IMG/VR virus record: IMGVR_UViG_3300020438_000128
Coordinates: 1 to 34,538 of that record
Direction: 5' to 3' (one strand)
DNA length: 34,538 nucleotides
DNA from: a virus
Numbering within the stretch: position 1 is the stretch's first letter; each line of letters opens with the position of its first letter. Made by a program: the position numbers and the translations under genes. Under the pieces are notes generated by a model that searched no databases, was not told the origin of the DNA, and was given only the letters and a program-made list of their open reading frames with translations. This document shows, one piece after another, positions 5,361 to 34,538 of this stretch.

Positions 5361-5380
5361 GATTTAAACAAAATTTTGAA

Positions 5381-5416: not shown

Positions 5417-5431
5417 ATTATATACAATAAT

Positions 5432-6760
5432 ATGGAAAAAGAACATTTAGTAATTATAGGAGCAGGAGTTGCAGGAGTAAATGCAGCTACAAAACTAATT
5501 GATAACAATCATAAAGGTAAAATCACCATAATTGATATGGGTAATGATCCCTTTAAACGTAAACCTGAAGAAGTAATGACAGGATTTATGGGTGCTGGTG
5601 GATGGTCAGATGGTAAATTAACTTATCATACATCTATAGGGGGTCATATGTCTAAATACTGTGGTGATGAAAAAGCTATGGAATTAATGGATCAGGTTAT
5701 TGATAATTTTAGAAGATTTCATCCTAAACCTGAAGTAATTCAATGTTCTCATCCAGTAAAAGAACCCGATTTTATCAAGCCTTATTTTGGTTTGCGCCTA
5801 TTCCCCGTATGGCATATAGGAACCGATTATCTACATGAAATTGGCAAGAATTGGTATACATATTTAACTGATAATGGAGTTGAATTTTTATGGAACACTA
5901 AAGTAACTGACATTAATTTTGATACTAATTTAGTTTATGGAGAAAATATTCCTTCAGGAAGAATTTATTATGATAGGTTAATATTTGGTGTGGGTAAATC
6001 AGGAATTGATTTTGGTAAAAAATTAGCTGAAAAATATGATTTACCAACAGAACCTAAACCAGTACAAATAGGAGTTAGATTTGAAGCACCACAACATCAT
6101 TTTCAAAAATTAATTGACATATCATATGATTTTAAATTATATAAAAAACTTGATAATGTAAGTTTAAGATCATTTTGTACAAATAATAATGCTGCTTATG
6201 TTGCTGTAGAAGATACTTATGGAAATCATTCTTATAATGGTCATGCTAAAAAAGATGAAGCATATAGAAATGATATGACTAATTTTGGTATTTTAATGGA
6301 AATTAGAGGTATAGATAAACCATTTGATTGGTCAAGAGAAGCAGTTAAAAAATTACAAATAGCAGGAACTGGTACTTATTATTCACCTAGTAGTAGAATA
6401 CCTTCAAAAACATCAGAAGGTAATTTAGTTAGATGTGTTGTAGTAGAAAATACAGAACCATTATTTGATGCATTAGGAGAACATGGTAATCATATAATAG
6501 ATTTTATTAAAGATATGACAAAAATATTTCCAACATTAAAAGATGATTGGGGTATTTATATGCCTGAAGTAAAATATTTATCACCTGAACCATTGGTAAA
6601 TTACGAAGATTTAAGTCTTACTAGGTTCCCCAATGTTTATTTTGTAGGTGATGCATTATCAGCAAGAGGTATTACAGTATCAGGAGCTCAAGGTACATAT
6701 GTTGCTGAATCATTATTAAAAGTAGTAGAAGAATACCCTGAATTTCATGAACATTTTTAA
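5432..6760 (+). CDS. FAD-dependent oxidoreductase (COG2509-like)
   Basis: The start at ATG 5432 is chosen because the frame upstream runs through a terminator. The 442-residue product opens with the Rossmann FAD motif HLVIIGAGVAGVNAA (GxGxxG at 10-15). GFMGAGGWSDGKLTYH and IGGHMSKYCG follow, matching the GGAGAFSDGKL-type signature of COG2509 FAD dehydrogenases. A central LRSFCTNN...AYVA region corresponds to the YSFCMCPGG segment of that family, but the Cys-Met-Cys is not conserved. The C-terminus has FVGDALSARGITVSGAQG, the second FAD contact. The substrate is unknown. It is a host-type metabolic gene in a phage structural region. A terminator lies upstream, yet its base composition and lack of a Shine-Dalgarno motif match its neighbours. 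Confidence 0.85.
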   Translation: MEKEHLVIIGAGVAGVNAATKLIDNNHKGKITIIDMGNDPFKRKPEEVMTGFMGAGGWSDGKLTYHTSIGGHMSKYCGDEKAMELMDQVIDNFRRFHPKPEVIQCSHPVKEPDFIKPYFGLRLFPVWHIGTDYLHEIGKNWYTYLTDNGVEFLWNTKVTDINFDTNLVYGENIPSGRIYYDRLIFGVGKSGIDFGKKLAEKYDLPTEPKPVQIGVRFEAPQHHFQKLIDISYDFKLYKKLDNVSLRSFCTNNNAAYVAVEDTYGNHSYNGHAKKDEAYRNDMTNFGILMEIRGIDKPFDWSREAVKKLQIAGTGTYYSPSSRIPSKTSEGNLVRCVVVENTEPLFDALGEHGNHIIDFIKDMTKIFPTLKDDWGIYMPEVKYLSPEPLVNYEDLSLTRFPNVYFVGDALSARGITVSGAQGTYVAESLLKVVEEYPEFHEHF

Positions 6761-6769
6761 AATAAAAAT

Positions 6770-7069
6770 ATGGATTTAACAAGAGAAGAATTACAAGCTC
6801 GAAGATGGGCTAAAACTAAAATAAGAAAAGTCTTTAAAATAGAAGAAGATGGATCTAAAACACAAGCAAGAGTTGTAGATTTTGGAAATGGTAGAGCAGT
6901 ACTTCATAATGAAGAAGGTCCTGCTTTAACTAATAAAAAACAAAGAAAAAAAGAATATTATCTAAATGGTATTGAATACAATTATGATAATTGGAATGCT
7001 ATTATGAAAGGTAAAGAAGGTTTACCTTGGTATAAAACAGCAGCAGGAAAAGGAACATCAAGACATTAA
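6770..7069 (+). CDS. Hypothetical protein with HxEGPA-type motif
   Basis: This 99-residue basic protein contains GRAVLHNEEGPAL followed by KKEYYLNGIEYNYDNW (about 43-75). It resembles the 'HREDGPA...YYLNGK' repeat found in many phage and bacterial proteins of unknown function. One repeat unit is present. It lies between the FAD oxidoreductase and the P-loop kinase, nine bases after the former and four before the latter, and is probably cotranscribed. Confidence 0.65.
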   Translation: MDLTREELQARRWAKTKIRKVFKIEEDGSKTQARVVDFGNGRAVLHNEEGPALTNKKQRKKEYYLNGIEYNYDNWNAIMKGKEGLPWYKTAAGKGTSRH

Positions 7070-7072
7070 AAA

Positions 7073-7618
7073 ATGAAAATAGGTTTATGTGGAACAATGA
7101 GTGTAGGTAAAACTACATTAGTAAATGCTTTAAAAGATGATATAGATTTTAAAAATTATATCTTTAGAACAGAAAGAAGTAAATATTTAAATTCAATCGG
7201 AATACCATTAAATACAGATAGTACTTTAAAAGGACAATTAGTATTTGCAGCTGAAAGAGCAGCGGAATTAATGCAAGAAAATATAGTAACTGATAGAACT
7301 ATTATAGATGTAATGGCTTTTTGTGAATTATCTAAATCAATGAATAAAGCTGAAAAACAACATATAAATGGAGTTTTATGGCATCTTATAAAAGAATATG
7401 ATATTATATTTCATATAGATGATTTGTCTGTGCCTATGGAAGATAATGGAGTTAGAGAAACAAATAAAGATTATAGATTAGCTATTCATCAAAAAATATC
7501 ATCTATATTAGGAATGCATAAATGGATGCCTGGTAAAGTAGTTACAATTTCAGGAACTACTAAAGAACGTATAAATCAAATTAAAACATCAATGGCTTCT
7601 TATATGTATAATAAATAA
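7073..7618 (+). CDS. P-loop kinase/ATPase, NadR-kinase-like
   Basis: The protein has 181 residues. MKIGLCGTMSVGKTTLVNAL carries a Walker A motif (GTMSVGKT, 7-14) directly after a first beta strand, as in small nucleoside or nucleotide kinases. FRTERSKYL (about 31-39) and ENIVTDRTIIDVMAF (about 69-83) correspond to substrate-binding and Walker-B-like DR segments of the AAA_28/NadR-type kinases (PF13521). Ribosylnicotinamide kinase or deoxynucleotide kinase activity would be consistent, but the substrate cannot be read from sequence. It ends one base before the terminase start and is likely cotranscribed with it. Confidence 0.75.
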   Translation: MKIGLCGTMSVGKTTLVNALKDDIDFKNYIFRTERSKYLNSIGIPLNTDSTLKGQLVFAAERAAELMQENIVTDRTIIDVMAFCELSKSMNKAEKQHINGVLWHLIKEYDIIFHIDDLSVPMEDNGVRETNKDYRLAIHQKISSILGMHKWMPGKVVTISGTTKERINQIKTSMASYMYNK

Positions 7619-7619
7619 T

Positions 7620-9212
7620 ATGTCTCAACAAAACATAAAACAAATTATAAAACAGGAGTACATTAAATGTGCTCAGGATCCTGTATACTTTATGAAAAAA
7701 TATTGTATGATTCAGCATCCTACTAGAGGGCGTATTAAATTTAATTTATATCCTTTTCAAGAAAAAGTTTTAGGATTATTAAATAAAAATGAAAGAAATA
7801 TTATACTAAAATCACGTCAGTTAGGTATATCTACTTTATCTGCAGGAATGGCTTTATGGCAAATGATATTTCAAAAAGATACAAATGTATTAGTAATTGC
7901 TACTAAACAAGACACAGCAAAAAATCTAGTAACAAAGGTAAAATTTATGTATGAAAATTTACCTTCTTGGCTTAAATTAGGTTTTGAAGAAAATAATAAA
8001 TTAGCACTTAGACTTAAAAATGGCTCTCAAGTAAAAGCAGTATCAGCGGCAAGTGATGCTGGTAGATCAGAAGCAATATCCTTACTAATTATTGATGAAG
8101 CTGCCTTTATTGAAGGAAATAGAATAGAAGAAATTTGGGCATCATCACAGCAAACATTATCAACTGGGGGTAGAGCAATAATTTTATCTACACCTAATGG
8201 TACAGGTAATTTCTTTCATAAAATGTGGGTTAGAGGAGAAGAAGGAACTAATGGATTTACTCCTATAAGATTACCTTGGACAGTACATCCAGAAAGAAAT
8301 GAAGCTTGGAGAACTCAACAAGAAGATGAATTAGGATCAAGAATGGCTGCACAAGAATGTGATTGTGATTTTACAACTTCAGGTAATACTGTTTTTGCTC
8401 CTGACTTAATGTCTTATTATGAAAAAACAACTGTATGTAATCCTGTAGAAAAAAGAGGATTAGATGGCAGTTTGCATATATGGGAATATCCTGATTATAA
8501 TAGAAATTTTATTGTTGTAGCGGATGTTGCAAGAGGAGATAGTAAAGATTATTCAGCATTTCACATTATAGATGTTGAAGAATGTAGACAAATTGGTGAA
8601 TTTAAAGCACAAATTGGTACCAAAGAATTTGGGCATATGTTAGTTGCTATTGCAACTGAATACAATAATGCATTACTTGTAATTGAAAATGCTAATATAG
8701 GATGGAATACAATTCAAGTAGTAATAGATAAAGGATATAAAAATTTATATTACTCACCTAAAGGAGATGCAGCCACAAGTGCTGATGCCTTTTTATCAAA
8801 AGGATACGATATAACAGACACAACTAAAATGGTTCCTGGTTTTACAATGAGTATGAAATCAAGACCATTAGTAATAGGAAAATTAGATGCTTATTTAAGA
8901 GAAAAATCACTTACTATTCAAGGAAAAAGAACGCTAGAAGAAATGCGAACTTTTATTTGGAAAAGTGGAAGAGCAGAAGCTCAAGGGGGATATAATGATG
9001 ATTTAGTAATGTCCCTAGCAACAGCTTGCTATGTAAGAGATACAGCTCTTAAATTTGCACAACAAGGAATTGATATGACAAACGCTGCATTAAATAATTG
9101 GAAACGAAGTACTCCTGCTATTTATACCAGTAAACCAAATAAAAAAGAAGCCGGTTGGACTCAAGACATGGGAGAACATGGACAACAAGATTTGACTTGG
9201 CTTTTAGAATAA
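7620..9212 (+). CDS. terL: Terminase large subunit (copy A, complete)
   Basis: This 530-residue protein is the ATP-driven DNA packaging motor, which docks on the portal and cuts concatemeric DNA. The N-terminal ATPase has Walker A SRQLGIST (65-72), like the T4 gp17 form, and Walker B LLIIDEAAF (155-163). STPNGTGN (about 190-197) fits the coupling motif. The RNase-H-like nuclease has D302 in VVADVARGD, E356 in VIENANIG, and D460/D461 in YNDDLVMSLA. Length and motif spacing match complete T4-like terminases. No small terminase subunit is recognised nearby. A second gene for the same protein begins at 34373: over 46 aligned N-terminal residues, 34 are identical. Confidence 0.96.
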   Translation: MSQQNIKQIIKQEYIKCAQDPVYFMKKYCMIQHPTRGRIKFNLYPFQEKVLGLLNKNERNIILKSRQLGISTLSAGMALWQMIFQKDTNVLVIATKQDTAKNLVTKVKFMYENLPSWLKLGFEENNKLALRLKNGSQVKAVSAASDAGRSEAISLLIIDEAAFIEGNRIEEIWASSQQTLSTGGRAIILSTPNGTGNFFHKMWVRGEEGTNGFTPIRLPWTVHPERNEAWRTQQEDELGSRMAAQECDCDFTTSGNTVFAPDLMSYYEKTTVCNPVEKRGLDGSLHIWEYPDYNRNFIVVADVARGDSKDYSAFHIIDVEECRQIGEFKAQIGTKEFGHMLVAIATEYNNALLVIENANIGWNTIQVVIDKGYKNLYYSPKGDAATSADAFLSKGYDITDTTKMVPGFTMSMKSRPLVIGKLDAYLREKSLTIQGKRTLEEMRTFIWKSGRAEAQGGYNDDLVMSLATACYVRDTALKFAQQGIDMTNAALNNWKRSTPAIYTSKPNKKEAGWTQDMGEHGQQDLTWLLE

Positions 9213-9235
9213 TATGTATAAAAAAAATAATATAA

Positions 9236-11083
9236 ATGGCAGATACTAGTTTATTTTCAAGACTACAGCGATTATTTTCCAGTGATGTAATCATTAGAAA
9301 CATAGGAGGAAAAAATTTAAAAGTAATGGACACAGGTAGGATCCAAAAATATGGAAACCTAGCTACAAATTCACTTTATGATAGATTTACACGTTTACAT
9401 AAACCTGTAGGATCTTCTTTACAATATAACCCAACATTAAATTATCAGTCAATGCGACTGCAGCTTTATAGTGATTATGAAGCTATGGATCATGATCCTA
9501 TTATTGCAGCGGCATTAGACATAATGTCTGATGAAACTACTACAAGAAATGAATATGGGGATGTTTTAAATATTAATTCATCTGATGAAAATGTAAGAAA
9601 AGTATTACAAAATTTATTTTATGATGTTTTAAATGTAGAATTTAATTTAGCTACATGGATTCGTAATATGTGTAAATATGGAGATTTTTATCTAAAATTA
9701 GAAGTATCTGAAAAATTTGGTGTTTATAATGTTTTACCTCTTTCAACTTATGAAGTAGTAAGAGAAGAAGGAACAGATCCCGAAAATCCTTCTTATACTC
9801 GTTTTACTCTTGACCCAAATGGTTTAGCTAGTGGAGCAACAAACACAATTAGAAGAGATCAGTTTACATTAGAAAATTATGAAATCGCTCATTTTAGATT
9901 ACTTACAGACTCTAATTATCTTCCTTATGGTAGATCATTTTTAGAACCAGCTCGTAAAGTATTTAAACAATTAATGTTAATGGAAGATGCTATGTTAATT
10001 CATAGAATTATGAGAGCACCCGAAAAAAGGGTGTTTTATGTTAATGTGGGTAATACAGACGCTGATAAGGTAGAACAATTTATGGCAGATACAGCTAATA
10101 AAATGAAAAAAACACCTTATATAGATCAACAAACAGGAGATTATAATCTTAAATTTAATATCCAAAATATGACTGAAGATTTCTTTATCCCAATTAGGGG
10201 TAATGATGCTTCTACTAGAATTGATACTACTAAAGGTTTAGATTATGATGGTACTACTGATATTGAATATTTAAAAGCTAAAATGATGGCTGCTCTTAAA
10301 GTCCCTAAACCATTTTTAGGTTATGAAGAGGGGGTAGAAGGAAAATCAACATTAGCGGGTATGGATATTCGTTTTGCTCGTACAGTTGAACGTGTTCAAA
10401 GAATAGTAGAATCAGAATTAACAAAAATAGCACTAGTACATTTATATTCTCAAGGATTTAGTGATGATAAATTAACTGATTTTAAATTAGAATTAACAAC
10501 TCCTTCAATTATCTATGAACAAGAAAAAATTGAGCTTTATACATCTAAAACAGCTGTAGCTCAAAATATGTTAGATCAAAAAATGTTTAGTAAAGATTGG
10601 GTATATGAAAATATATTCGGGTTATCCCCTGACCAATATCAAGATCAAAAAGAAGCAATAGCCGAAGATGCTATGGCTAAATTTAGATTATCCCAATTAG
10701 AAAATGAAGGAAACGATCCGGCTGAATCTGGTATATCTTATGGTACTCCTCATGATTTAGCTTCATTATATGGTAATAAAAGAGATAAAGCAGTAGGACC
10801 CGCCCAAGTACCAACGGGGTATGATGAAAAAGATCCAGGTCGTCCTATAGAAAGGCCTCAAAATTATAACTCAGATAAAGGAAATTTAAGTAGAGACCCC
10901 TTAGGTAAAAAAGGATTGTCTATAGATAAAGTAGAAAAACCATCAGAAGGCAATAAAGTTTCAACATTTGAAATTAAAAATTTAAAAAAATCCCTTCAAA
11001 AAGTTAAAAATAAAAAACAAGTTTTAAAAGAAACAGACGAAAAGGGTCTTTTAAGTGAAAAAAATATTAAGCCTCAAGAATAG
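9236..11083 (+). CDS. Portal protein, gp20-like
   Basis: This 615-residue protein forms the dodecameric ring at the packaging vertex. The segment YSDYEAMDHDPIIAAALDIM (about 80-100) is typical of T4-family portals, followed by DETTTRNEYGDVL. EIAHFRLLTDSNYLPYGRSF and a long helical MLMEDAMLIHRIMRAPEKRVF segment match the portal clip/stem region. GVEGKSTLAGMDIRFARTVER follows. The protein is somewhat longer than T4 gp20, with a Pro/Asp-rich then Lys-rich C-terminal tail. It directly follows terminase, as in T4 (17-20 neighbourhood). The start after AATATAAATG lacks a Shine-Dalgarno motif. Confidence 0.93.
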   Translation: MADTSLFSRLQRLFSSDVIIRNIGGKNLKVMDTGRIQKYGNLATNSLYDRFTRLHKPVGSSLQYNPTLNYQSMRLQLYSDYEAMDHDPIIAAALDIMSDETTTRNEYGDVLNINSSDENVRKVLQNLFYDVLNVEFNLATWIRNMCKYGDFYLKLEVSEKFGVYNVLPLSTYEVVREEGTDPENPSYTRFTLDPNGLASGATNTIRRDQFTLENYEIAHFRLLTDSNYLPYGRSFLEPARKVFKQLMLMEDAMLIHRIMRAPEKRVFYVNVGNTDADKVEQFMADTANKMKKTPYIDQQTGDYNLKFNIQNMTEDFFIPIRGNDASTRIDTTKGLDYDGTTDIEYLKAKMMAALKVPKPFLGYEEGVEGKSTLAGMDIRFARTVERVQRIVESELTKIALVHLYSQGFSDDKLTDFKLELTTPSIIYEQEKIELYTSKTAVAQNMLDQKMFSKDWVYENIFGLSPDQYQDQKEAIAEDAMAKFRLSQLENEGNDPAESGISYGTPHDLASLYGNKRDKAVGPAQVPTGYDEKDPGRPIERPQNYNSDKGNLSRDPLGKKGLSIDKVEKPSEGNKVSTFEIKNLKKSLQKVKNKKQVLKETDEKGLLSEKNIKPQE

Positions 11084-18035: not shown

Positions 18036-18056
18036 TTTATATTTGTATCTTTTTTT

Positions 18057-18087
18057 AAAGAGAGCCGCATTAGCGGCTCTTTTTTTA
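18057..18087 (+). terminator. Rho-independent terminator after the capsid gene
   Basis: Stem AGAGCCGC/GCGGCTCT, loop ATTA, then seven T. The 38 bases from 18053 to 18090 recur at 18853-18890 with a single mismatch in the loop. Confidence 0.95.
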
Positions 18088-18099
18088 TATGTATATTTG
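18086..18099 (+). promoter_or_regulatory. Promoter-like box (TATATGTAT overlapping TATATTTG)
   Basis: TATATGTAT (18086-18094) overlaps TATATTTG (18092-18099). The latter is a perfect match to the Bacteroidota -7 consensus TAnnTTTG. It follows the capsid terminator and precedes the gene at 18210 by about 110 nt. Confidence 0.5.
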
Positions 18100-18836: not shown

Positions 18837-18856
18837 TAAACAGTACTTATTGTTTT

Positions 18857-18887
18857 AAAGAGAGCCGCAATAGCGGCTCTTTTTTTA
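18857..18887 (+). terminator. Rho-independent terminator (copy of the one at 18057)
   Basis: Stem AGAGCCGC/GCGGCTCT, loop AATA, then seven T. It lies exactly 800 bp after the capsid terminator and shares 37 of 38 bases with it. Confidence 0.95.
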
Positions 18888-18894
18888 TATTTAT
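18886..18894 (+). promoter_or_regulatory. TATATTTAT promoter-like box
   Basis: TATATTTAT directly follows the terminator T-run and lies 17 nt upstream of the phoH start. It is one of the recurring boxes described at 11087. Confidence 0.45.
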
Positions 18895-23681: not shown

Positions 23682-24041
23682 ATGTCAGAAGAAAAATTTC
23701 CCATAAAATGGAAAGACGCAGATTTTAAATGGAATATTGCCCCTCCTAATGAAGGATATAAACCTGGTTTTAAACCATCAAAAATTCCCTACACATGGAA
23801 TGACGTAGCATTAATTGAGGCCGCTGTAGGTATAGGGGGTGACTTAATAGATGATATGCCATGGCAAAAGTGGGAAGACGAAAAGAAAAAAAGTCTTATA
23901 AAACTCATTTGTAAAATAAAAGGAAAAACATATAAAGAATCTAAATATGTTGGTGATTATAAAATAAAAATAAGTGACGTAAAATTAGCAGCTAAAGAAA
24001 TATTGGGAATTGAAGTAATAACAGAAAATATTAAGTTTTGA
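23682..24041 (+). CDS. Hypothetical protein between fibre genes
   Basis: This 119-residue protein has a Trp/Pro/Lys-rich N-terminal half (FPIKWKDADFKWNIAPPNEG) and a helical C-terminal half (DEKKKSLIKLICKIKGKTYK). I recall similar 'DEKK..LIKLI.K.KG' proteins next to tail genes in marine phages but know no function. An adaptor or chaperone for the fibre proteins is possible from position. Confidence 0.55.
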   Translation: MSEEKFPIKWKDADFKWNIAPPNEGYKPGFKPSKIPYTWNDVALIEAAVGIGGDLIDDMPWQKWEDEKKKSLIKLICKIKGKTYKESKYVGDYKIKISDVKLAAKEILGIEVITENIKF

Positions 24042-24050
24042 TAACCATTT

Positions 24051-24059
24051 TATATTTAT
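24051..24059 (+). promoter_or_regulatory. TATATTTAT promoter-like box
   Basis: TATATTTAT ends 14 nt upstream of the start at 24074, in the 32-nt gap after the previous gene. The spacing resembles that of T4 late promoters to their genes. Confidence 0.4.
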
Positions 24060-24073
24060 GACAAAACAACTTT

Positions 24074-24634
24074 ATGTATAAATTATTTACAGACAAGTCT
24101 GAACTCTTCGAGTGTGACATTAAATTAGAAGGTGCAAGCTTAAGTAAATCAAAAGCACGTTTAGTAGTTGAAACCTCTGATTATTCATTATTATTTAAAG
24201 GAACAATTTCTAAAGGAGGTAAATGTGAAATTCCCATTAGAAAATTAAAAGGTTTAATTGATGAAAACACTTCAGGTAATATTCGTTTAGAAGTTATTGC
24301 CGAAGACACTTACTTTACACCTTGGGAATCAGATTTTGAAGTAGACGCAAGTAAAAAAGTAACTGTTGAAGTTAAATCACAAACAACTAAAAAACCTATT
24401 GTAGAAGCTAAAGTAAAGGTTAAAGTTAAAAATAAAAAACCAACAATTACTGAAAAAGATCACGTTATAAATTTATTTAAACTTTTAATAAAAGAAGATA
24501 TAAACGTAGACAATATTTCATACAAGCGTAATGAACTAAACAATATAGTAGCAACGTATCTCAAAGAAAATACCGTGAAAAACACAAGTAAAATTATCAA
24601 CGGTGTATTAAATATTCTTGAAAAAAAGAAATAA
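24074..24634 (+). CDS. Conserved phage protein, two-domain, possibly structural
   Basis: The 186-residue protein has an N-terminal beta-sandwich-like half (LFECDIKLEGASLSKSKARL, IRLEVIAEDTYFTPWESDFE). A Lys/Val-rich linker (EAKVKVKVKNKKP) and a helical C-terminal domain (DHVINLFKLLIKEDINVDN) follow. I recall the FEC.....EGASL and DTYFTPWES segments from hypothetical proteins of marine T4-like phages. The role is unknown. Position between fibre genes suggests tail assembly. Confidence 0.6.
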   Translation: MYKLFTDKSELFECDIKLEGASLSKSKARLVVETSDYSLLFKGTISKGGKCEIPIRKLKGLIDENTSGNIRLEVIAEDTYFTPWESDFEVDASKKVTVEVKSQTTKKPIVEAKVKVKVKNKKPTITEKDHVINLFKLLIKEDINVDNISYKRNELNNIVATYLKENTVKNTSKIINGVLNILEKKK

Positions 24635-24646
24635 AAATGGTTATAA

Positions 24647-27600
24647 ATGGCAGTAAACGATTTTTCGAATCAAAATATACAGGACACTTACCAAAGAGTA
24701 GTCCAAACAGATGGAACTGATTTATCTGATGGTACGGGTAGTCTTTTACCTATAAAATTTGATGGTCCTGATCTTATAGTTTCGGGTGCTGTTAGAGCAA
24801 ATTCCTATATAGTTTCTGAAAGTATTACTAGTGTTTCTTCTGGATCTACAGCATTTGGAAATTCAACAGATGATACCCACACATTTACCGGTAATATAAC
24901 AGCCTCGAATCGTATAAGTGCAAGTGGTCATGTATATGCAGATGTTTATATATCCAATAATCAACATATTGCAAGTAACACTGATAGTAAATCATTTTTC
25001 GCTTATGATGGTGCTTTAACACAGATTAACATAGGAAAAGGACCTGAACAAAGTACATTGTTTAGTGGAAAAATAACATCATCACAACTTATTACATCCC
25101 CAACATACATTATAGATAGTGAAGATGCCAATGGTGGAAAAATAACACTAAACGGTAATGGAGTTATAAATGTTACTGCTGGTAATGAAGGAGGGCTAAA
25201 TAATGTTTATTTTAAAAGCAGTGAACTAGAAGTCACTGGTGATGTAATAATAGATGGTAGTTTAATACATCGAGGTGATACTGACACAAAAATCACCTTT
25301 GGAACAGATCAAATAGATTTTATAGCTGGGAATGTTACTATGATAACTTTAAATGAAACCGATGATGGGGACAGTATAAAATTGGAGGTACCTGTAACAG
25401 CATCAGGTGCTATAAGCTCAAGTGGGATAATATCTACTCCCCAATTAAATACACGATCAATAACAGGTATAAATCCAGACGGTACATTAGATCCAGACAC
25501 TAAAATTGACATTGGGCCAACCGCAAACAGAATAGATTTTACGAATGGGGGTAGTATTTTATTAAGATTAGATCCTCAAGGTGATGAACCAATCATTCTA
25601 AATGATGATAGTTTAGTAAATGGGTATTTAACTACTCAAGGCAACATAACATCCTCAGGTAACATTAGTGCAAGTGGAGTAATATCAGCTGATCAAGGTA
25701 ATTTTGATCATTTACTTACAGGGGTTGAAATAGGAGAAGATCAAGTATCAGGTACAAATGTCGACGGCGTATTAAATATAGCAGCTTCAAGTTTAGCATA
25801 TAAATCACAGATATCATTTAAAGGAGCAGGCACCCAACAATGGGCAATAGGTTTTCCTGCTAACTCTTTAGATACTGATTTTGTTATACAAGAAGGAACA
25901 AATGCAGCATTATCGGCAACAGATGCTTTTATAATAACAAAAGACAATAAAAATGTTGGTATTAATTACCAAGCAGGAACTGATTTACCTGCAAAATTAT
26001 CAGTAGATGGAAACATAAACACAACATCTCATATAACAGCCTCAGGAAATATAAGTGCAAGTAATAATATATTAGGAAAAAAAGCAGTTATAGGTCAAAG
26101 TGATAGTGGTCACATTTATACCCCTACTAGTTTGGCAGCAGATAATCCCCATATACATTTGTCTTCTAACAATGAAGTTACTTTAGGTGACAATGAAGAT
26201 GCAATAAGTGCAACTAAAATTACAATTAGCCCAAATAATAGTAGAATTAGTTATGAAATTCCAACTACTGGTAAATTTAATGTTGTTGCTAACACATTAG
26301 AATTTGACGGTGTAGGTAATTTTATAGCAAGAAGTGGAAGTTTTTCTAAAAGAATTGAAACAGTTGGGGCAAATATAGAACACGCAGTAATTACACAAAT
26401 TAATACTAGTGATGCTGGTGTTGAAGAAGGTTTAAATATAGATGGCTCAATAGGAGCACAAATAGGTACTACTTTTATTGTAGCTCCTAGTTTATCTGTG
26501 GGGGGTATTATAGAAGCAAAAGACATATCTGCTAAATTAATAAAAATTAGTTATGAAAGTATAGGAGAAGCAGTAATAGGAACTAATTTTATGGTAGGTC
26601 CTGGTTTAGATATTGATGGCGACATAAGTGTGGGTAATATAACATCCTTAGGTGATATAAGTTCAAGTGGTGATATTTATGGAACAACCTTTTATGGTGG
26701 AGGTGGAAGAATATATGCAGACTATAATTTATCAAATGCTCATTTTTTAAGAACAACAACTATAAATAATCCAATACTAAGTGCAGTAGGAGGATTTAAT
26801 GTAGTTGGAAATGTAACAGCCTCAGGTGATATAAGTTCAAGTGGTCAAATATATGGTACAAATTTTTATTCATATAATAAAGACTTTATGAACTACCATG
26901 CAGGTGATGATATATTTAGAGTATCTGCAGATGGAACTCCAGTTGAGTTTTTTACAAGTATAAAAGCTACAAATATAACAGCCTCAGGTAATATAAGTGC
27001 AAGTGGTGATATACTCGGAAATGAATATAAAATTGCAGGAGGTGCATTTGGAACTTATCTTTCAATAGTTGATACTATAAGATTAGCAGATCAATCAAAA
27101 AAGACAATAATTGATGGAAGTACCATAACATTTTTTGATGCACCAACAAAAATTGTAGGACATATAACAGCATCAGCTAATATAAGTTCAAGTGGAAATA
27201 TATTAACTAGTGGGGATGTAACTGCTTTAGGAACAGTAACAGCAGCAACATTAGATGCAACAGCAGTTACAGATGGGTTAGCAGCAGCAATAGTTGCAGA
27301 AATTGATAACGACGAAATTCCAATTGCTAAATTAGCTGAAGATGCCGTAACAATAACAGCAGGAGATGGATTAAAAACAGGAGGTTCAGTTACTCTTGGA
27401 GGTTCAGTTACTTTAGATGTAGATGTTGATGTTATAGCAGGTGTAGGTTTAACAGCAGATAATACAAATGAAGAATTAGATGTATCAGCTGCTCAAACAG
27501 GAATAACATCAGTTACAAATACAGGTTTAAAAGTAGGTAGAGCTACTGACGATACTTACATTGATTTTGGAACAGATGATAAAATTCAATTAAAACCAGC

Positions 27601-28663
27601 TAATGCAATTGCTTTAGAAGTAGAAACAACAGGTATTGACGTAACAGGTCACATAACAGCCTCAGGTAATATAAGTGCAAGTGGAGATATAACAGCCGAT
27701 GATATTTTTATTCCTAAACTTGGTGGTAAAATTCAATTTGCCGGAGACCCCCAAACCTATATAGGAACAACCGGAACACCAGAACAATTAGAAATACATG
27801 CTGATTCAGATATAAGACTTCAACCAGATGAAGATCTAATTATATATCAATCCGGTACTGAATGGGTAAGATTTAGTGGTGACAATAGAGGTCTAAACAT
27901 AGAAGGAAACATTACAGCTTCAGGTGATATAAGTTCAAGTGGAGATGTAAGTACAACTGGAACTTTACAAGCAGGAAACACAAACATTACAGATCTTACT
28001 TTAGGTATAGATGGTTCAACAGGTGGTCAAATAGGAACTTCCTTTGTTATAGGTCCTACTTTACAAGTTGGGGGGACTATAGAAACAGAATATATAAAAA
28101 TTAAAAATGAAGGTATAGAAGAAGCAGTAATAGGAACTAGTTTTATAGTAGGTCCTTCTTTACAAGTTGAGGGAACTATAGATTCAGATGAAATAACAAC
28201 AACAGCTATAACAACAACAACTGTAGAATCTCAGTATAATCTTCTTGATGTAAATTCATCAGCATTAAATGGTAGTAAACGTGGAACTATGGGGGACATA
28301 GTTAAATTTGGAAACACTAGTACTACAGCGGGTAAAATATATTATTTAAAAAATGATGGAACTTGGGGTGATGCTAATGCTACTAACACATCAGCTTCAA
28401 CAGGATCTCTTGCAGTAGCTGTAGGAGTTAATTCTTCTACAAGTGGTATGTTATTAAGAGGTATGTGTAATATACACACAGGTCCTTCAGCAGGAATAGG
28501 TAATCCAATTTTCTTAGCTACACAGGCAAATCGAGCTCAAGCAGCTGCCCCTGACACTTCAGGAAACATTGTAAGAATTCTTGGACATCAATTTGGTGAC
28601 GGTGGTACTGCAGATCCTATTTATTATTTTAACCCTTCACCAGATTTTATAGAAGTAGCATAA
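24647..28663 (+). CDS. Large repeat-rich tail fibre protein
   Basis: At 1338 residues this is the longest gene in the window. Repeats of the form NITASGNISASGDI recur about ten times and alternate with beta-rich spacers, a layout expected of a trimeric fibre shaft. A second repeat, Ig..GxxIGTxFxVgPxLxVxGxIe, occurs as two pairs (near 26440 and 26563, and near 28008 and 28118). A coiled linker (about 870-960) has IPIAKLAEDAVTITAGDGLK. The C-terminal region, STSGMLLRGMCNIHTGPSAG to YYFNPSPDFIEVA, is typical of marine phage fibre tips that end after 'VRILG'. The fibre would contact the host surface. No C-type lectin variable domain or reverse transcriptase is seen, so this is not a diversity-generating element. 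Confidence 0.88.
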   Translation: MAVNDFSNQNIQDTYQRVVQTDGTDLSDGTGSLLPIKFDGPDLIVSGAVRANSYIVSESITSVSSGSTAFGNSTDDTHTFTGNITASNRISASGHVYADVYISNNQHIASNTDSKSFFAYDGALTQINIGKGPEQSTLFSGKITSSQLITSPTYIIDSEDANGGKITLNGNGVINVTAGNEGGLNNVYFKSSELEVTGDVIIDGSLIHRGDTDTKITFGTDQIDFIAGNVTMITLNETDDGDSIKLEVPVTASGAISSSGIISTPQLNTRSITGINPDGTLDPDTKIDIGPTANRIDFTNGGSILLRLDPQGDEPIILNDDSLVNGYLTTQGNITSSGNISASGVISADQGNFDHLLTGVEIGEDQVSGTNVDGVLNIAASSLAYKSQISFKGAGTQQWAIGFPANSLDTDFVIQEGTNAALSATDAFIITKDNKNVGINYQAGTDLPAKLSVDGNINTTSHITASGNISASNNILGKKAVIGQSDSGHIYTPTSLAADNPHIHLSSNNEVTLGDNEDAISATKITISPNNSRISYEIPTTGKFNVVANTLEFDGVGNFIARSGSFSKRIETVGANIEHAVITQINTSDAGVEEGLNIDGSIGAQIGTTFIVAPSLSVGGIIEAKDISAKLIKISYESIGEAVIGTNFMVGPGLDIDGDISVGNITSLGDISSSGDIYGTTFYGGGGRIYADYNLSNAHFLRTTTINNPILSAVGGFNVVGNVTASGDISSSGQIYGTNFYSYNKDFMNYHAGDDIFRVSADGTPVEFFTSIKATNITASGNISASGDILGNEYKIAGGAFGTYLSIVDTIRLADQSKKTIIDGSTITFFDAPTKIVGHITASANISSSGNILTSGDVTALGTVTAATLDATAVTDGLAAAIVAEIDNDEIPIAKLAEDAVTITAGDGLKTGGSVTLGGSVTLDVDVDVIAGVGLTADNTNEELDVSAAQTGITSVTNTGLKVGRATDDTYIDFGTDDKIQLKPANAIALEVETTGIDVTGHITASGNISASGDITADDIFIPKLGGKIQFAGDPQTYIGTTGTPEQLEIHADSDIRLQPDEDLIIYQSGTEWVRFSGDNRGLNIEGNITASGDISSSGDVSTTGTLQAGNTNITDLTLGIDGSTGGQIGTSFVIGPTLQVGGTIETEYIKIKNEGIEEAVIGTSFIVGPSLQVEGTIDSDEITTTAITTTTVESQYNLLDVNSSALNGSKRGTMGDIVKFGNTSTTAGKIYYLKNDGTWGDANATNTSASTGSLAVAVGVNSSTSGMLLRGMCNIHTGPSAGIGNPIFLATQANRAQAAAPDTSGNIVRILGHQFGDGGTADPIYYFNPSPDFIEVA
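26975..27684 (+). repeat. Example exact 32-nt repeat pair in the fibre gene
   Basis: Bases 26975-27006 and 27653-27684 are identical over 32 nt and encode ITASGNISASG. About eight further diverged copies exist through the gene and in the fibre gene at 22736. The identity extends to synonymous positions. Confidence 0.8.
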
Positions 28664-28932
28664 TGGGATATATAAGAGCAATACAAAAATATAATAGCAC
28701 ATCAAATGTATGGGAAACTATACAATCAGGAAATAATACTATATTAAAAACAGAATCTACTAGTAATGTTCCTACTGATGATTCCTCAATTGAATTAATT
28801 AATGGAGAATATTATAACGGAGTTTATTATGAAGAAGGAGATTATTTTATAGCAGACTGGGATTACGATAATAATACAGGCTGGTTATGTCCAGACGAAA
28901 CACAATTTAATATATATAATGCCAACAACTAG
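28663..28932 (+). CDS. Small tail-associated hypothetical protein
   Basis: This 89-residue acidic, Tyr/Asn-rich protein contains INGEYYNGVYYEEGDYFIAD and later WDYDNNTGWLCP. It overlaps the fibre stop by one base (ATAATG) and the next gene by 14 nt, so it belongs to the fibre operon. An adhesin tip, chaperone or fibre accessory role is inferred from position only. Confidence 0.6.
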   Translation: MGYIRAIQKYNSTSNVWETIQSGNNTILKTESTSNVPTDDSSIELINGEYYNGVYYEEGDYFIADWDYDNNTGWLCPDETQFNIYNANN

Positions 28933-29638
28933 TATAGAAGGACCACATAGCACTGGAAATGTAGGCACCGATATTGGTGATGGGGTAAATTATGCTTCAA
29001 TATCTTCTACTCAAAGAAATAGAGTTAAAGAAAATTCATCAGGCGCTAGTGCTATGGCAGCTACATCTACACCATCAGGTGCAAAATTTTTTAACTTTTT
29101 TAATGATAACCAAATACCATTAACCGCAACTATTCTAGGAGTAGAATTAGTATTTGGAACTGACTTTGATGGAACAGGTAATTCAAATATAGGATCTTTT
29201 GGTTCAAGTACAGGTACATTTGATGTTGAATGTTATTTACATAATGGAACTTCATACTCATCAAAGTTAACTTTTAAAAGTGTACCACTTACTAGTATAG
29301 GTGGTTCTGGAGGTACTTTAAGTAACTCGGACACTACAGCTGAATTTAATGGTGCTAATATTAGATATGTTAATAATTCTTCAGGAGATGATGTAGGATT
29401 TGGTGGAACAGATGATTTATCTGGTTTAAGTTGGGATCCTGTAAATCAAGCTGCTTTTGGGTTTGCTCTTACATTTCAAAATGAAAGTAGTGCTATGGTT
29501 GCTGGAATTACAAGAGGCTTTGGGTTACGAGTTACATATAGTGATTTTGTAGATCCTAACCCTCCTTATGACAACTCAGGCAGTATTAAATTAAAAACTG
29601 GAAATATAACAATAACTTCAGGTAATTTGGTAATTTAA
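28919..29638 (+). CDS. Putative tail fibre/adhesin tip protein
   Basis: The 239-residue protein is rich in Gly, Ser, Thr and Asn with many beta strands (LTATILGVELVFGTDFDG, FGFALTFQNESS, GFGLRVTYSDFV), suggesting a beta-sandwich carbohydrate-binding or tip domain. No signal peptide or Cys cluster is seen (one Cys only). It is the last gene before the apparent junction at about 29640. Family not recognised. Confidence 0.6.
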   Translation: MPTTSIEGPHSTGNVGTDIGDGVNYASISSTQRNRVKENSSGASAMAATSTPSGAKFFNFFNDNQIPLTATILGVELVFGTDFDGTGNSNIGSFGSSTGTFDVECYLHNGTSYSSKLTFKSVPLTSIGGSGGTLSNSDTTAEFNGANIRYVNNSSGDDVGFGGTDDLSGLSWDPVNQAAFGFALTFQNESSAMVAGITRGFGLRVTYSDFVDPNPPYDNSGSIKLKTGNITITSGNLVI

Positions 29639-29640
29639 TC

Positions 29641-29649
29641 GATATTTAT
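29641..29649 (+). promoter_or_regulatory. ATATTTAT promoter-like box at the junction
   Basis: GATATTTATATATATGG follows the stop of the last fibre gene. A 16-nt match, ATATTTATATATATGG, occurs again at 34362 just before the second terminase. The box lies 16 nt before the preferred start at 29666. Confidence 0.35.
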
Positions 29650-29665
29650 ATATATGGAGAAAACT

Positions 29666-32065
29666 ATGAATTTAGGCAATTGGTTAGCAGATAAGATTAT
29701 AGCAGAAGAAAAAACTGTTATAAAAACTATTGTCGCTATATACCCTGGCAGATTTCAGCCTATGGGCAAGCATCATGCTCAAGCATATAAATGGCTTAAA
29801 TCTAAATTTAAAGATGCACATGTTGTAACTTCTGATAAAGTAGATTTACCTAAATCACCATTTTCATTTAATGAAAAGAAAAAAATAATAAATTCTTATG
29901 GTATACTAAATATAGTTAAAGTAAAAAATCCATATCAAGCAACGGAATTACTTAAAAAGTACGACCCTAAAACAACAGCAGCTATATTTATGGTAGGTGA
30001 AAAAGATGCAAGTAGATTAGGTGGTAAGTTTTTTAGACCTTGGAAAGGAAAAGCAGATGTTGGATATAAAGATGGTGCATATACAATTATAGCACCACAT
30101 GTATCATTAAAAGTACCAGGTCATGGAGAAATGAGTGGTACAGCAATTAGAACTTCTCTAGGTGCAAAAGCTATTACAGATAAAGAGCGAGCTCAATTAT
30201 TTAAACATATATTTGGACATATGAAAAATTACAGTTTAATAACTAAAAAATTAGGCATTACAGAATCAATAGCTAATTTTATAGCAACAGGAAAAGTTCA
30301 AAAGATAATAATTGAAAATAGTAATATGGCAGGCTCTGAAGTTGATGATGGACCACAAACATGGTATTATAATCAAGCTCACTACAAACAATCAACTAAA
30401 GCTATTGCAAAAAAATTAGGAATGCAGGTGCTTGACTATTTATCAGGTGATAATGAAGTATTACGAGAGCCATCAAGGTATAACGCTAATGAAAGACAGC
30501 CTTCTTATTATCCTTCTGGTGTACCTGGCAAGACATCAAAAACCAATCCTAAAATATATCGTACTTTAACAGCATTTGGTAAATGGAAGAAAGAACAAGA
30601 TAAATTAGCTAATACTCTAGGATATGAATTATTAGATTATATGGGTGCAGAAATGTCTGTTGGATATCCAGAACCTAATACCGAAGATAAAACACCTACA
30701 AATATTGAAGAGGATATTACTATACCAATTAATATAGGAGATACGGTATTAGGTGGTAAGTTTAAAAATAAGCGTATTGTTGTTAAGCATATAGGAAAAA
30801 ATGAGAAAGGTGATATTACTATAAATGGTAGACCTCTTATGAAGTATAGATTAATTGCAGAAGGATTAATTACAGAAGGTGGGGCGTATGGTCACATGTC
30901 ACATCCATTCGATGATAGAGGATTAACATTTGGAGAATTTAAAGAAATTATTAATATATCATTACAAGGTAAATTAGATCTTGATGCAGCAGCAACAGAA
31001 AAAACAGATGGCCAAAATTTATTTATATCATGGAATAATGAACTTCGTGCAGCTAGAAATGCTGGCGATATTAAGCGTGGTGGTATGGATGCAAGGTCTT
31101 TTGCTGCTAAATGGAAAGGTAGGGGTAATATAGAAAAAGCTTTTACTTACGCATTTAAAGATCTATCTAAAGCTATACAAAAATTATCTGATAAACAACG
31201 TAATAAAATATTTGGTGATGGTAATAATTGGATGAATATGGAAATAATGTATCCTGCATCGCAAAATGTTATTGTTTATGATGCTCCAAACTTACAATTC
31301 CACGGAGTACTTAAATATGAAAAAGGCGTACCAGTTGGCACAGTTAAAGATGGTGCAAGAATACTTGCTGGAATGATTAAACAGGTAGATGCTAATATAC
31401 AAAAGAATTTTAGTATTATTGGTCCACAAGTTCTTAAAGTTGATCCACATCAAGATTTTGGTAAAAAGATACCTTATTTTACATCCAAATTAAAAAAGCT
31501 AATGTCTAAATATAATATGAAAGATTCACAAACGTTTGCAGAATATCATCAAGTGTGGTGGGAAACGTACATTCAAAAGAATTTCAAGAATCTTGATACA
31601 CGAACTAAAATGGGACTAGTTAAAAGATGGGCATTTCACGATAAGTCGTTTAGATTAAATAAACAAAACTTTAATGATGCAGATCTATTAGCTAAAGTTA
31701 TAGAGTTTGATAAACAAAAACATAAAGGCACAGTACAGGATACAATGAAACCATTTGAGGTATTATTCTTTGAATTAGGTGCTGAGGTACTAAAAAATGT
31801 ACAAGGGTTTTTAACCGTAAGTCCTGATAAAGCAGTTCAACATATTAAAAAGCAGGTATCAAAAGCTATTAGTGATGTGCGTAAAGGTGGTGATATTAAA
31901 AAATTAAATCGTATGGGTCAACAGTTGAGCAAGCTAAATGCAATTGGTGGATGGAAAGCTGTTATTCCATCAGAAGGCTTGGTATTTATATATAAAGGCA
32001 AAACTTATAAATTAACCGGTGCATTTGGTCCAATAAATCAAATTGCAGGTATGATGACGTTTTAG
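29666..32065 (+). CDS. Nucleotidyltransferase-ligase-like fusion protein
   Basis: I prefer ATG 29666 because GGAG lies six bases before it; ATG 29654 in frame is the alternative. The product has about 799 residues. Domain 1 (about 20-180) is a cytidylyltransferase fold: AIYPGRFQPMGKHHAQAY has the GRFQP motif with a degenerate HxGH, and EMSGTAIRTSL is the S-x-T-x-I-R motif. A middle region holds KOW-like INIGDTVLGGKFKNKRIVVK. Domain 3 (from about 405) contains ATEKTDGQNLFISW, the K-x-D-G motif I of the nucleic acid ligase superfamily, and MNMEIMYP. Nucleotide transfer or RNA/DNA end repair is inferred. It is the first gene of the SD-bearing region and has more AAG and CGT codons than the genes to its left. 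Confidence 0.75.
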   Translation: MNLGNWLADKIIAEEKTVIKTIVAIYPGRFQPMGKHHAQAYKWLKSKFKDAHVVTSDKVDLPKSPFSFNEKKKIINSYGILNIVKVKNPYQATELLKKYDPKTTAAIFMVGEKDASRLGGKFFRPWKGKADVGYKDGAYTIIAPHVSLKVPGHGEMSGTAIRTSLGAKAITDKERAQLFKHIFGHMKNYSLITKKLGITESIANFIATGKVQKIIIENSNMAGSEVDDGPQTWYYNQAHYKQSTKAIAKKLGMQVLDYLSGDNEVLREPSRYNANERQPSYYPSGVPGKTSKTNPKIYRTLTAFGKWKKEQDKLANTLGYELLDYMGAEMSVGYPEPNTEDKTPTNIEEDITIPINIGDTVLGGKFKNKRIVVKHIGKNEKGDITINGRPLMKYRLIAEGLITEGGAYGHMSHPFDDRGLTFGEFKEIINISLQGKLDLDAAATEKTDGQNLFISWNNELRAARNAGDIKRGGMDARSFAAKWKGRGNIEKAFTYAFKDLSKAIQKLSDKQRNKIFGDGNNWMNMEIMYPASQNVIVYDAPNLQFHGVLKYEKGVPVGTVKDGARILAGMIKQVDANIQKNFSIIGPQVLKVDPHQDFGKKIPYFTSKLKKLMSKYNMKDSQTFAEYHQVWWETYIQKNFKNLDTRTKMGLVKRWAFHDKSFRLNKQNFNDADLLAKVIEFDKQKHKGTVQDTMKPFEVLFFELGAEVLKNVQGFLTVSPDKAVQHIKKQVSKAISDVRKGGDIKKLNRMGQQLSKLNAIGGWKAVIPSEGLVFIYKGKTYKLTGAFGPINQIAGMMTF

Positions 32066-32072
32066 GGAAGTT

Positions 32073-32645
32073 ATGAAAAAAGGTATTACAAAAAATAAAG
32101 TTCAGAGAATGAGAAATATTATCTCTGGTAATTATAATGCAAAAAGCAAAATAAGTAGTGGTTATACAAAAAGAAATGTAACCCGTAAAGAGGGTGATAT
32201 TTGGGAAGAGCGTGGTAAAGAGTGGACAATTAAGAATGGTATACGTAGAACGGTAGATAAACTTGCATACGCGAGGAAAATAAATAAAATACCATTTACA
32301 TGTCCTAAATGTCCTAAAACATTAAACCACCCTGCTCATAGAAAAATGTTTAAGAGGTGGGGTATGTGCCTTACATGTGTAGTAAAGTGGGAGCAAGAAA
32401 TGCAAGCGAATGGTACTTATGATGAGTGGCATGCGCAATTTGATACAACCAATTTTAATGCTTTTATAAAAGATATTAAAGGTGAATATGAAGAATGGTT
32501 AGATAAGCGAAATTCAAAACACTATATTAGTGAAGCAGGAGATATTGAAGATTGGGGTGGTGGTAAAACAGATAAAGAACTAACAGAAGAATTTAACAAA
32601 TCTTTAGAAGATGCAATGGAGAAGCGAAATGCCAAGATTGACTAA
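32073..32645 (+). CDS. Zinc-ribbon phage protein (copy B)
   Basis: This 190-residue paralogue of the gene at 1408 shares the basic N-terminus (KNKVQRMRNIISGNY), RKEGDIWEERGKEWTIKNGI (about 39-57), and the Cys pairs C77/C80 (CPKC) and C99/C102 (CLTC). GDIEDWGGGKTDKEL near its end matches GHVERWVGGIDKEKM in copy A. AGGGAAG seven bases before ATG is a Shine-Dalgarno-like signal that copy A lacks. The two copies have diverged clearly, so they are not a recent duplication. The next gene starts 17 nt inside its 3' end. Confidence 0.75.
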   Translation: MKKGITKNKVQRMRNIISGNYNAKSKISSGYTKRNVTRKEGDIWEERGKEWTIKNGIRRTVDKLAYARKINKIPFTCPKCPKTLNHPAHRKMFKRWGMCLTCVVKWEQEMQANGTYDEWHAQFDTTNFNAFIKDIKGEYEEWLDKRNSKHYISEAGDIEDWGGGKTDKELTEEFNKSLEDAMEKRNAKID

Positions 32646-32883
32646 TGAACACTTGCATAATGAAATAAATTTAGTTAAACAAGAGTTAGAGTATGTTAAG
32701 AGAAATCAAGATAAAATGCAACAAGATTTATCTATGATAAAGGAAAGGATACTTAATCCGGATGAGGGTGCTATTGCTAGAGTAAATAAAAATACACAAT
32801 TTAGAAAATCAACAACTAAAGTATTGTGGTCAATTTGGATTGCGTTGATTGGAATTTTAACTAAAATGATTTTTTGGGATTAA
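32629..32883 (+). CDS. XhlA-like/holin-associated small membrane protein
   Basis: I choose ATG 32629 because GGAG lies seven bases upstream; ATG 32611 in frame lacks a site. The 84-residue protein has an N-terminal coiled coil (EINLVKQELEYVKRNQDKM), a linker PDEGAIARVNKNTQ, and a C-terminal membrane helix (about 65-82, VLWSIWIALIGILTKMIFW). This layout is that of XhlA-type lysis or holin-helper proteins. It begins inside the zinc-ribbon gene, as in an operon. Confidence 0.7.
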   Translation: MPRLTNEHLHNEINLVKQELEYVKRNQDKMQQDLSMIKERILNPDEGAIARVNKNTQFRKSTTKVLWSIWIALIGILTKMIFWD

Positions 32884-32885
32884 TT

Positions 32886-33656
32886 ATGAAAATAAAAGAC
32901 TTAATAAAAGAAGAAGTACAAAAGATGTTAGAAGCATCTATGACAAAAGGATTTAGAAAAGCAGTAGAAGCTCTTCAAGATATTCAACTTAAACAACAAC
33001 AATTGCGTAAAGCTTTTGTTGCTGAAAAAGATCCTAAAAAGAAAGAAAAATATAAACAAGCATTAATAAAGATGCATAAAATTGTACAAAAAGTAGAACT
33101 AGATTTCAACAGAGCTATATCAAATGAACCAGTTGAGTTAGAGGAAACTTTATTTGAAAGCAAAATGAAAATAAACAAGAATGTATATAGAGATTTTGAT
33201 GAGTTAGAAATATCTCAGGATAATAGAGTCCAGTTTAAAAAACAGGGAAGCAATTATCTTGTAAGATATGTTAGTTCAAATTCATATATGGATGATGATA
33301 TTATGAAGATCTTACCTAGAACAGGTGAAACAAGATTTGCAGGTAGATATTATTATACATATGATGATAATCTTAATCCTATAAAATTAAACAAATCAAA
33401 GTTTAATAAATTATTATCTGCAATTGATAAAGGATTTAAACAACATGCTAAATCATTTGCTGATTTTTATGCAAATAGACAAGTTGCTGATGGTGTTAAC
33501 GAACTTGATGTAAGAAAAGTACACGGTGATAAAAGAATAGAAAATCCTAAAACAGGTAACAAGGTAAAATTAAGAACTGCATTGAAAGGTAAAAAAGGTT
33601 CTAAAGTTTACCAAACAGCAAAAAAAATATATAATAGGTTAAAAGATGGAGAATAA
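32886..33656 (+). CDS. Hypothetical protein with helical N-terminal tag
   Basis: I choose ATG 32886 (TAATTATG), two bases after the upstream stop, over 32874 inside that gene. The 256-residue product starts with KIKDLIKEEVQKMLEAS, the same tag class as genes in the left part of the window. A Lys/Gln-rich helical domain (about 20-85) is followed by beta-rich RVQFKKQGSNYLVRYV and RYYYTYDDNLNPIKLNKS, and the C-terminus is basic (KTGNKVKLRTALKGKKGSK). I recall similar YYTYDDNLNPI segments in marine phage proteins of unknown function. Confidence 0.65.
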   Translation: MKIKDLIKEEVQKMLEASMTKGFRKAVEALQDIQLKQQQLRKAFVAEKDPKKKEKYKQALIKMHKIVQKVELDFNRAISNEPVELEETLFESKMKINKNVYRDFDELEISQDNRVQFKKQGSNYLVRYVSSNSYMDDDIMKILPRTGETRFAGRYYYTYDDNLNPIKLNKSKFNKLLSAIDKGFKQHAKSFADFYANRQVADGVNELDVRKVHGDKRIENPKTGNKVKLRTALKGKKGSKVYQTAKKIYNRLKDGE

Positions 33657-33659
33657 GTT

Positions 33660-33953
33660 ATGAAAAAGCTATGGTCATATATAATAGCTGGAGGTGCTTT
33701 ATTAGCAGCAATACTATGGGCATCCAGTACTACTAGTAAAAAGAAGTTTAAAAAAGATCTTAAAGATAATAAAAATAAAATAAAAGATGTAAAAAATAAA
33801 ACTGAAGAGGCTAAACAAGAGAAAAAGAAAATTAACGAAAAGATTGTTAAGCAAGATAAAAAAATTAAAGATATAAAAAAGAACGTTAAAACAACAACTT
33901 CAGCTAAAAAAACAATTAGTAATTTTGAAAATAAATACAGGAGTAAAAAGTAA
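33660..33953 (+). CDS. Lys-rich single-TM protein of the lysis region
   Basis: This 97-residue protein has an N-terminal membrane segment (about 4-22, LWSYIIAGGALLAAILWAS) followed by a very Lys-rich coiled coil with repeated KDxKxKxxEAKQEKKK. The layout resembles inner-membrane spanin (Rz-like) or holin-helper proteins. It follows GGAG eight bases before ATG. It overlaps the next gene, a lipoprotein, by one base, as Rz-type and Rz1-type genes often do, though the neighbour also has its own second membrane segment. Confidence 0.65.
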   Translation: MKKLWSYIIAGGALLAAILWASSTTSKKKFKKDLKDNKNKIKDVKNKTEEAKQEKKKINEKIVKQDKKIKDIKKNVKTTTSAKKTISNFENKYRSKK

Positions 33954-34345
33954 TGAAAAAAATAATTTATATACTAGGAATTATATTACTTGCTTCATGT
34001 GCTACTCCTAAAAAGTGTTGTGCACAAGATAAAATTATTAAAATACCACAATCAGAATTAGATGCTTTCTTTTTAGCAGTAGATACTCTTGAGCAACAAG
34101 ATTCTATAAAAACTATATTAATTGCTGAACTCGAATTACAATTGCTAAATAAAACTAATTTAGAATTCACTAATAAAACAATTTTACTAAATCAAGGATA
34201 TGAAATTGAGATGTTAAACGATCAAATTAAATTATACGAAGATAGGTTGAAAATAACAGACGCTTGGTATAACAAACGATGGTTTGGTATAGTTGTAGGG
34301 ATTGCTGGTACATCAACTGCTATTTATCTTGCAGGTCAGCTCTAA
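33953..34345 (+). CDS. Candidate u-spanin lipoprotein
   Basis: The 130-residue protein has a lipoprotein signal, MKKIIYILGIILLASC with lipobox LASC and C16 as the lipidated residue. It has a second hydrophobic segment at the C-terminus (about 110-128, WFGIVVGIAGTSTAIYLAG). The middle is a predicted coiled coil (AELELQLLNKTN, EIEMLNDQIKLYEDRLK). An outer-membrane lipid anchor plus an inner-membrane helix in one chain is the design of unimolecular spanins, which fuse the two membranes at the end of lysis. AGGAG lies nine bases before ATG. Confirmation by prediction tools was not possible. Confidence 0.65.
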   Translation: MKKIIYILGIILLASCATPKKCCAQDKIIKIPQSELDAFFLAVDTLEQQDSIKTILIAELELQLLNKTNLEFTNKTILLNQGYEIEMLNDQIKLYEDRLKITDAWYNKRWFGIVVGIAGTSTAIYLAGQL

Positions 34346-34359
34346 TAATATAACTTTTA

Positions 34360-34368
34360 TATATTTAT
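34360..34368 (+). promoter_or_regulatory. TATATTTAT box before the second terminase
   Basis: TATATTTAT ends four bases before the terminase ATG at 34373. That is too close for a promoter of this gene unless transcription starts at or beyond the ATG, so this copy argues for caution about the box as a promoter. Confidence 0.25.
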
Positions 34369-34372
34369 ATAT

Positions 34373-34538
34373 ATGGCGAAAGATATTAAACAAATAGTAG
34401 CAGATGAGTATTTAAAGTGTGCAAAAGATCCTGTGCACTTTATGAGAAAGTATTGTAAAATACAACACCCTACCCGGGGTAAAATTAACTTTGATTTATA
34501 TCCATTTCAAGAAAAAGCTCTCACGCAATTTAAAGATA
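34373..34538 (+). CDS. terL: Terminase large subunit (copy B, 3' truncated by window end)
   Basis: The first 55 residues of a second large terminase are visible before the window ends. KCAKDPVHFMRKYCKIQHPT and RGKINFDLYPFQEKAL align with the same region of copy A, with 34 of 46 residues identical. The start is supported by that alignment; no Shine-Dalgarno motif is seen. The ATPase and nuclease motifs lie beyond the window. Two terminase genes in one phage would be very unusual. Confidence 0.9.
   Translation, partial: MAKDIKQIVADEYLKCAKDPVHFMRKYCKIQHPTRGKINFDLYPFQEKALTQFKD

Follow-up and report, generated by a model that had tools for sequence, protein, structure and literature searches.

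Jumbo Xanthomonas phages are reported to have two terminase homologues in tandem (PMC11273794), and a split terminase has been reported for phiPDS1, whose authors also raised the possibility of an assembly problem (PMC10773633). In simulated viromes, chimeric contigs are frequent, and coexisting similar genomes are detrimental to genome reconstruction (PMC4247695). The viral contig considered here (IMG/VR record IMGVR_UViG_3300020438_000128), whose entire 34,538 nt we call the window, resembles neither the tandem terminases of the Xanthomonas phages nor the split terminase of phiPDS1. As judged from sequence comparisons, it joins two lineages of T4-like marine phages, which we call A and B, and the second terminase gene most likely comes from a different, related ocean phage that was joined to the contig end by assembly software. 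The likeness is to the chimeric contigs of virome assembly, in which reads of more than one related genome are joined in one contig (PMC4247695), with the difference that the present chimera is inferred from comparative genomics.

Among isolates, the nearest to the left part of the window is Flavobacterium phage vB_FspM_immuto (Immutovirus), whose terminase is 58% identical over its full length and whose genes follow the same order (terminase, gp20 portal, protease, gp23 capsid, PhoH and head completion protein). It differs in having one terminase, which, unlike that of the left part, is not preceded by an FAD oxidoreductase gene, and its shared structural genes are only ∼40–58% identical. For the right part, the nearest isolate is Microcystis phage Mel-JY01, which has in common the order cytidylyltransferase-like gene, zinc-ribbon relative (22% identical), small genes, large terminase and portal. 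Mel-JY01 differs in that it has one terminase, its NMNAT-like protein is ∼46% identical, and it lacks the fibre/neck join of the window.

The lineage A segment comprises positions 1–29538 (plus strand, as are the lineage B segment, the junction interval, the fibre cassette and the zinc-ribbon, holin, terminase, NMNAT-like, r5 and r6 genes described below), and contains the end of a Hint-domain gene, a zinc ribbon, a holin, an FAD oxidoreductase, terminase 1, portal, protease, scaffold, capsid, PhoH, neck, g27–g32 and fibre genes. Lineage A contigs, which were gathered with queries from the window’s left part, have the same order: zinc ribbon, peptidase, holin, FAD oxidoreductase, terminase, portal, capsid, PhoH, neck, g27–g32 and fibre. 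Contig L086 of this group matches window positions 5–9991 at 99.8% identity, and its locus reaches 8.6 kb further left, so the window’s left end is that of a normal lineage A genome. The window itself opens within a GGC repeat, translated as poly-glycine, after which comes a Hint/Vint (intein-like) domain (both within 1–679), and L086 runs on through the repeat. Genes of a T4-like (gp17/gp20/gp23) myovirus occur in order in this segment, namely a T4-type terminase, gp20 portal, S77 prohead protease and gp23 capsid, with Pfam matches to Portal_T4 (1e-69), Peptidase_S77 (1e-32) and Gp23 (3e-77). No contractile tail genes (sheath, tube) were seen in the window; lineage A relatives have them next to the fibre cassette, and presumably they were cut off at the join. 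Two other features of the segment may be mentioned. In lineage A phages, holin and terminase are separated by a gene for an FAD/NAD-dependent oxidoreductase (5432–6760), which is ∼73–90% conserved in some 20 contigs and is possibly a metabolic gene. Terminator-like hairpins (AGAGAGCCGC..GCGGCTCTTTTTTT) also follow both the capsid gene (18050–18094) and the gene downstream of it (18850–18894), and these two are nearly identical (93%).

The lineage B segment (29641–34538) consists of a promoter, an NMNAT-like/ligase-like fusion gene, zinc ribbon 2, r3, r4, the spanin-like genes r5 and r6, and the N-terminus of terminase 2. Its first gene (29654–32065) encodes an 803-aa protein with an N-terminal NMNAT/cytidylyltransferase-like domain (GRFQPMGKHH) and a C-terminal ligase-like part with EKTDG, and so seems to be a fusion of the two. 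The KTDG ligase-like motif was read from the sequence, and the protein’s match to Pfam CTP_transf_like (E 0.0018) is weak and does not reach the family’s cut-off; no PHROG family matches the protein, and a PDB search returned one marginal match. Relatives are encoded in at least 122 viral contigs. When the window’s genes were mapped onto 80 viral contigs gathered through this protein, a conserved lineage B order was found: g31, g32, fibre, NMNAT-like, zinc ribbon, small genes, terminase, portal, protease and scaffold. Eight uncultivated IMG/VR contigs (L003–L008, L057 and L082) have the same gene order as the window across the whole right end, with 89–96% identity for the terminase N-terminus and 76–92% for the NMNAT-like protein. 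Unlike the window, they have a single terminase, and what precedes the NMNAT-like gene, where in view, is a gene of a lineage B fibre cassette.

The two terminases are assigned to different lineages. Terminase 1 (TER1; 7620–9212) is a complete large terminase of 530 aa (phrog_2, E 5e-50; Pfam Terminase_6N, E 8e-15), and is 100% identical to that of L086, 80–88% identical to lineage A terminases, and 57–61% identical to full-length lineage B terminases. Terminase 2 (TER2; 34373–34538) is represented by its N-terminal 55 codons (34373–34537), and its frame is unbroken and still open where the contig ends. TER2 matches the PHROG terminase family phrog_5989 (E 2e-10) and aligns with TER1 at 34 of 48 positions (71% identities, 90% positives, E 7e-27), which agrees with the resemblance described in the initial annotation. 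It is 87–96% identical to the nearest lineage B terminases (L003–L008, L048, L057 and L082) and 67–75% identical to those of lineage A, and the reverse is seen for the N-terminus of TER1, which averages 91% identity to lineage A and 68% to lineage B. The same annotation had proposed to check whether the two genes sit in different phage clades, and here they belong to different lineages. None of the 97 terminase-bearing loci has a second terminase, and none of the contigs compared carries more than one. A wrap-around of a circularly permuted genome was rejected because the two copies differ, with a 75% DNA match across 133 bp. A split or intron-broken terminase, of the kind considered for phiPDS1, was likewise rejected, TER1 being complete and TER2 being an N-terminus from the other lineage.

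Upstream of each terminase is a zinc-ribbon gene. The lineage A copy (1408–2025) is 100% identical in L086 and 54–71% in most other contigs with the gene, and the lineage B copy (32073–32645) is 60–69% identical in the closest lineage B contigs; the two are paralogues, as had been noted from the sequence, with 57 of 177 residues identical (32%, E 5e-35). The initial annotation had also described a shared order of zinc ribbon, holin-type protein and terminase. This holds in the broader form of zinc ribbon, membrane/lysis genes and terminase, but the holins do not correspond: the lineage A holin (4744–5136) matches phrog_3427 (E 2e-31), and no homology to it was detected for the right-hand 90-aa protein (32611), which we do not call a holin. 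The lysis genes on the right are probably r5 (33660–33953), an inner-membrane spanin-like coiled-coil protein with a weak match to the Rz-like spanins of phrog_6197 (E 0.004), and r6 (33953–34345), which as read from its sequence has a lipobox and a C-terminal hydrophobic segment and is unimolecular-spanin-like. The lysis slot upstream of the terminase holds a 3-TM holin in 48 loci and r6 in 21 loci, and in no locus do the two occur together. Holin and r6 are alternatives in this slot, and the window has one of each.

The change of lineage occurs at the end of the fibre cassette (g31, g32, g33, g34 and g35; 23682–29638), which is followed by the tail sheath in lineage A and by the NMNAT-like gene in lineage B. 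In lineage A the cassette lies between neck and tail sheath, and in lineage B it lies upstream of NMNAT-zinc ribbon-terminase, with neck and sheath after the capsid. A neck gene precedes A-type g32 in 25 of 25 loci, and the sheath comes next in all three with enough flank; where B-type g32 and the NMNAT-like gene are both present, the NMNAT-like gene is next and no neck precedes in 21 of 21 loci. Longer contigs agree with the placement of the cassette in each lineage. Three loci with g32 of ∼60% identity (L205, L206 and L214) have a neck before it and no NMNAT-like gene in view. The window’s g34–g35 are closest to L083–L085, in which sheath, tube and tape-measure genes come next. Among the loci compared, the window alone has a neck and an A-type cassette followed by the NMNAT-like gene.

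Nucleotide homology to L083–L085 stops inside g35, at 29538, and homology to lineage B begins at 29623–29641, at the promoter-like GATATTTATATATATGGAG, which lineage B conserves upstream of its NMNAT-like gene. The junction interval (29539–29640) takes in the end of g35, whose C-terminus is of the ...SGSIKLKTGNITITSGNLVI type, and extends as far as the lineage B promoter, close to the position of 29640 at which the initial annotation had guessed a break. Its 102 bases encode a fibre C-terminus. Similar C-termini are found just before the NMNAT-like gene in L040, L041, L051 and L056, and also in the lineage A contigs L124 and L173, and on this comparison the 102 bases may derive from either lineage. 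If from lineage B, the switch would be inside g35, the body of which may be common to both lineages. The reading frame of g35 is intact and closes with a clean stop codon, 16 bases short of the next start. The only repeat found within the window that might bridge the join is a 16-base promoter repeat. A 48-base junction pattern has no exact match in the other viral contigs searched, which is weak evidence since the collection may omit records very near the window; the lineage B promoter pattern alone occurs in one lineage B contig. No near-identical contig was found that shows the true continuation, either of the lineage B phage or of lineage A past 9991. The ATATTTATA motif occurs at 11088, 19594, 29642 and 34361, shortly upstream of structural genes of both lineages, and is possibly a late promoter; its right flanks are often lineage-specific (AACAAA in A, TATATGG in B).

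Codon usage also steps at the join (∼29.65 kb). From left to right, the use of GAG for Glu rises from 6% to 27% (37/624 versus 25/94; Fisher p 1e-8) and that of AAG for Lys from 6% to 21% (44/742 versus 47/229; p 1e-9), and GAC for Asp falls from 24% to 5% (146/604 versus 5/94; p 6e-6). A global statistic separates the right end less clearly, the capsid region being unusual as well: the whole-block G statistic is 180 for the right block and 46–211 for the left blocks, the highest value being that of the capsid block, so codon usage varies inside lineage A too and the right end is not singled out, as it is by the individual codon pairs.

Taken together, the two parts of the contig are nearest to different genomes, the signature changes abruptly at the join, and the junction is absent from the independent contigs searched. 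We consider a chimera, in which two co-occurring T4-like marine phages are joined through a tail-fibre gene, the highly probable origin of the contig, and we infer that it was an assembler, and not natural recombination, that made the join at sequence common to both phages (a fibre domain or the ATATTTATA promoter). The contig would start in lineage A, running from its zinc-ribbon/holin module past terminase, portal and capsid to the neck and on into the fibre cassette, leave it via the end of the fibre gene (∼29.54–29.64 kb), and continue in lineage B with the NMNAT-like gene, zinc ribbon, spanin-like genes and terminase. Since both lineages have fibre genes at the join, a short-read assembler could enter via lineage A and exit via lineage B. 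The initial annotation’s suggestion of a related but different phage as the source of the right end is supported; of the two origins that it offered for such a join, the assembly chimera is favoured, though not proven, and a true recombinant is possible but unlikely.

Such a recombinant would have arisen on coinfection, when recombination in the shared tail-fibre gene joined genomes of lineages A and B and placed both terminase regions on one molecule, possibly a non-viable intermediate or a concatemer. Fibre genes are recombination hot spots, related fibre proteins adjoin the join in both lineages, the frame of g35 is preserved across the region, and recombination in a fibre gene would leave the same sequence. 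A single crossover at this position, however, duplicates the head genes and parts the neck/fibre region from the tail sheath, and the arrangement is seen in no other contig of either lineage, nor is the junction found elsewhere; for these reasons we regard this origin as unlikely. It is very unlikely that the window represents a real, packaged recombinant of two T4-like lineages that arose within a tail-fibre gene common to both and has a complete terminase/head module from each.

Acquisition by a lineage A phage of a lineage B cassette (NMNAT-like gene, zinc ribbon, lysis genes and a terminase N-terminal remnant) between fibre and sheath, with TER2 as a truncated passenger, would be compatible with a contig that ends inside TER2, and the only cytidylyltransferase that lineage A contigs have of their own is distant (27–29%). 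Yet TER2 is uninterrupted up to the contig end, the codon-usage step requires a very recent transfer, and no lineage A contig examined has such an insertion, which makes this origin highly improbable. The fact that terminase and zinc-ribbon genes each occur twice in the contig, and the precedent of the jumbo Xanthomonas phages (PMC11273794), might instead suggest that the phage truly has two terminases, or that its packaging/lysis module was duplicated long ago inside a single genome, both of which the initial annotation had entertained. These we consider exceedingly improbable. The two copies have their nearest relatives in different phage lineages and not in each other, codon usage differs, and the holin and r6 lysis types never co-occur. 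An ancient internal duplication was rejected because TER2 (up to 96% identical to lineage B) and its neighbours are closest to another lineage and TER1 (80–88% to lineage A) is in its own. Nor is a stable double-terminase phage supported, given the absence of a second terminase from all 97 loci and a join that would part the neck and fibre genes from the lineage A tail sheath.

With the assembly chimera as the preferred reading, in which the terminase at the contig end belongs to another phage and was joined on, the window is not evidence for a phage with two packaging motors. Two terminases in one contig are easily misread as novel biology, and chimeric contigs distort viral gene-sharing and taxonomy. 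In practical terms, a shared fibre gene should be checked as an assembly trap when the position of the cassette differs between related lineages. Should the junction prove genuine, it would be a documented case of fibre-gene recombination between T4-like lineages.
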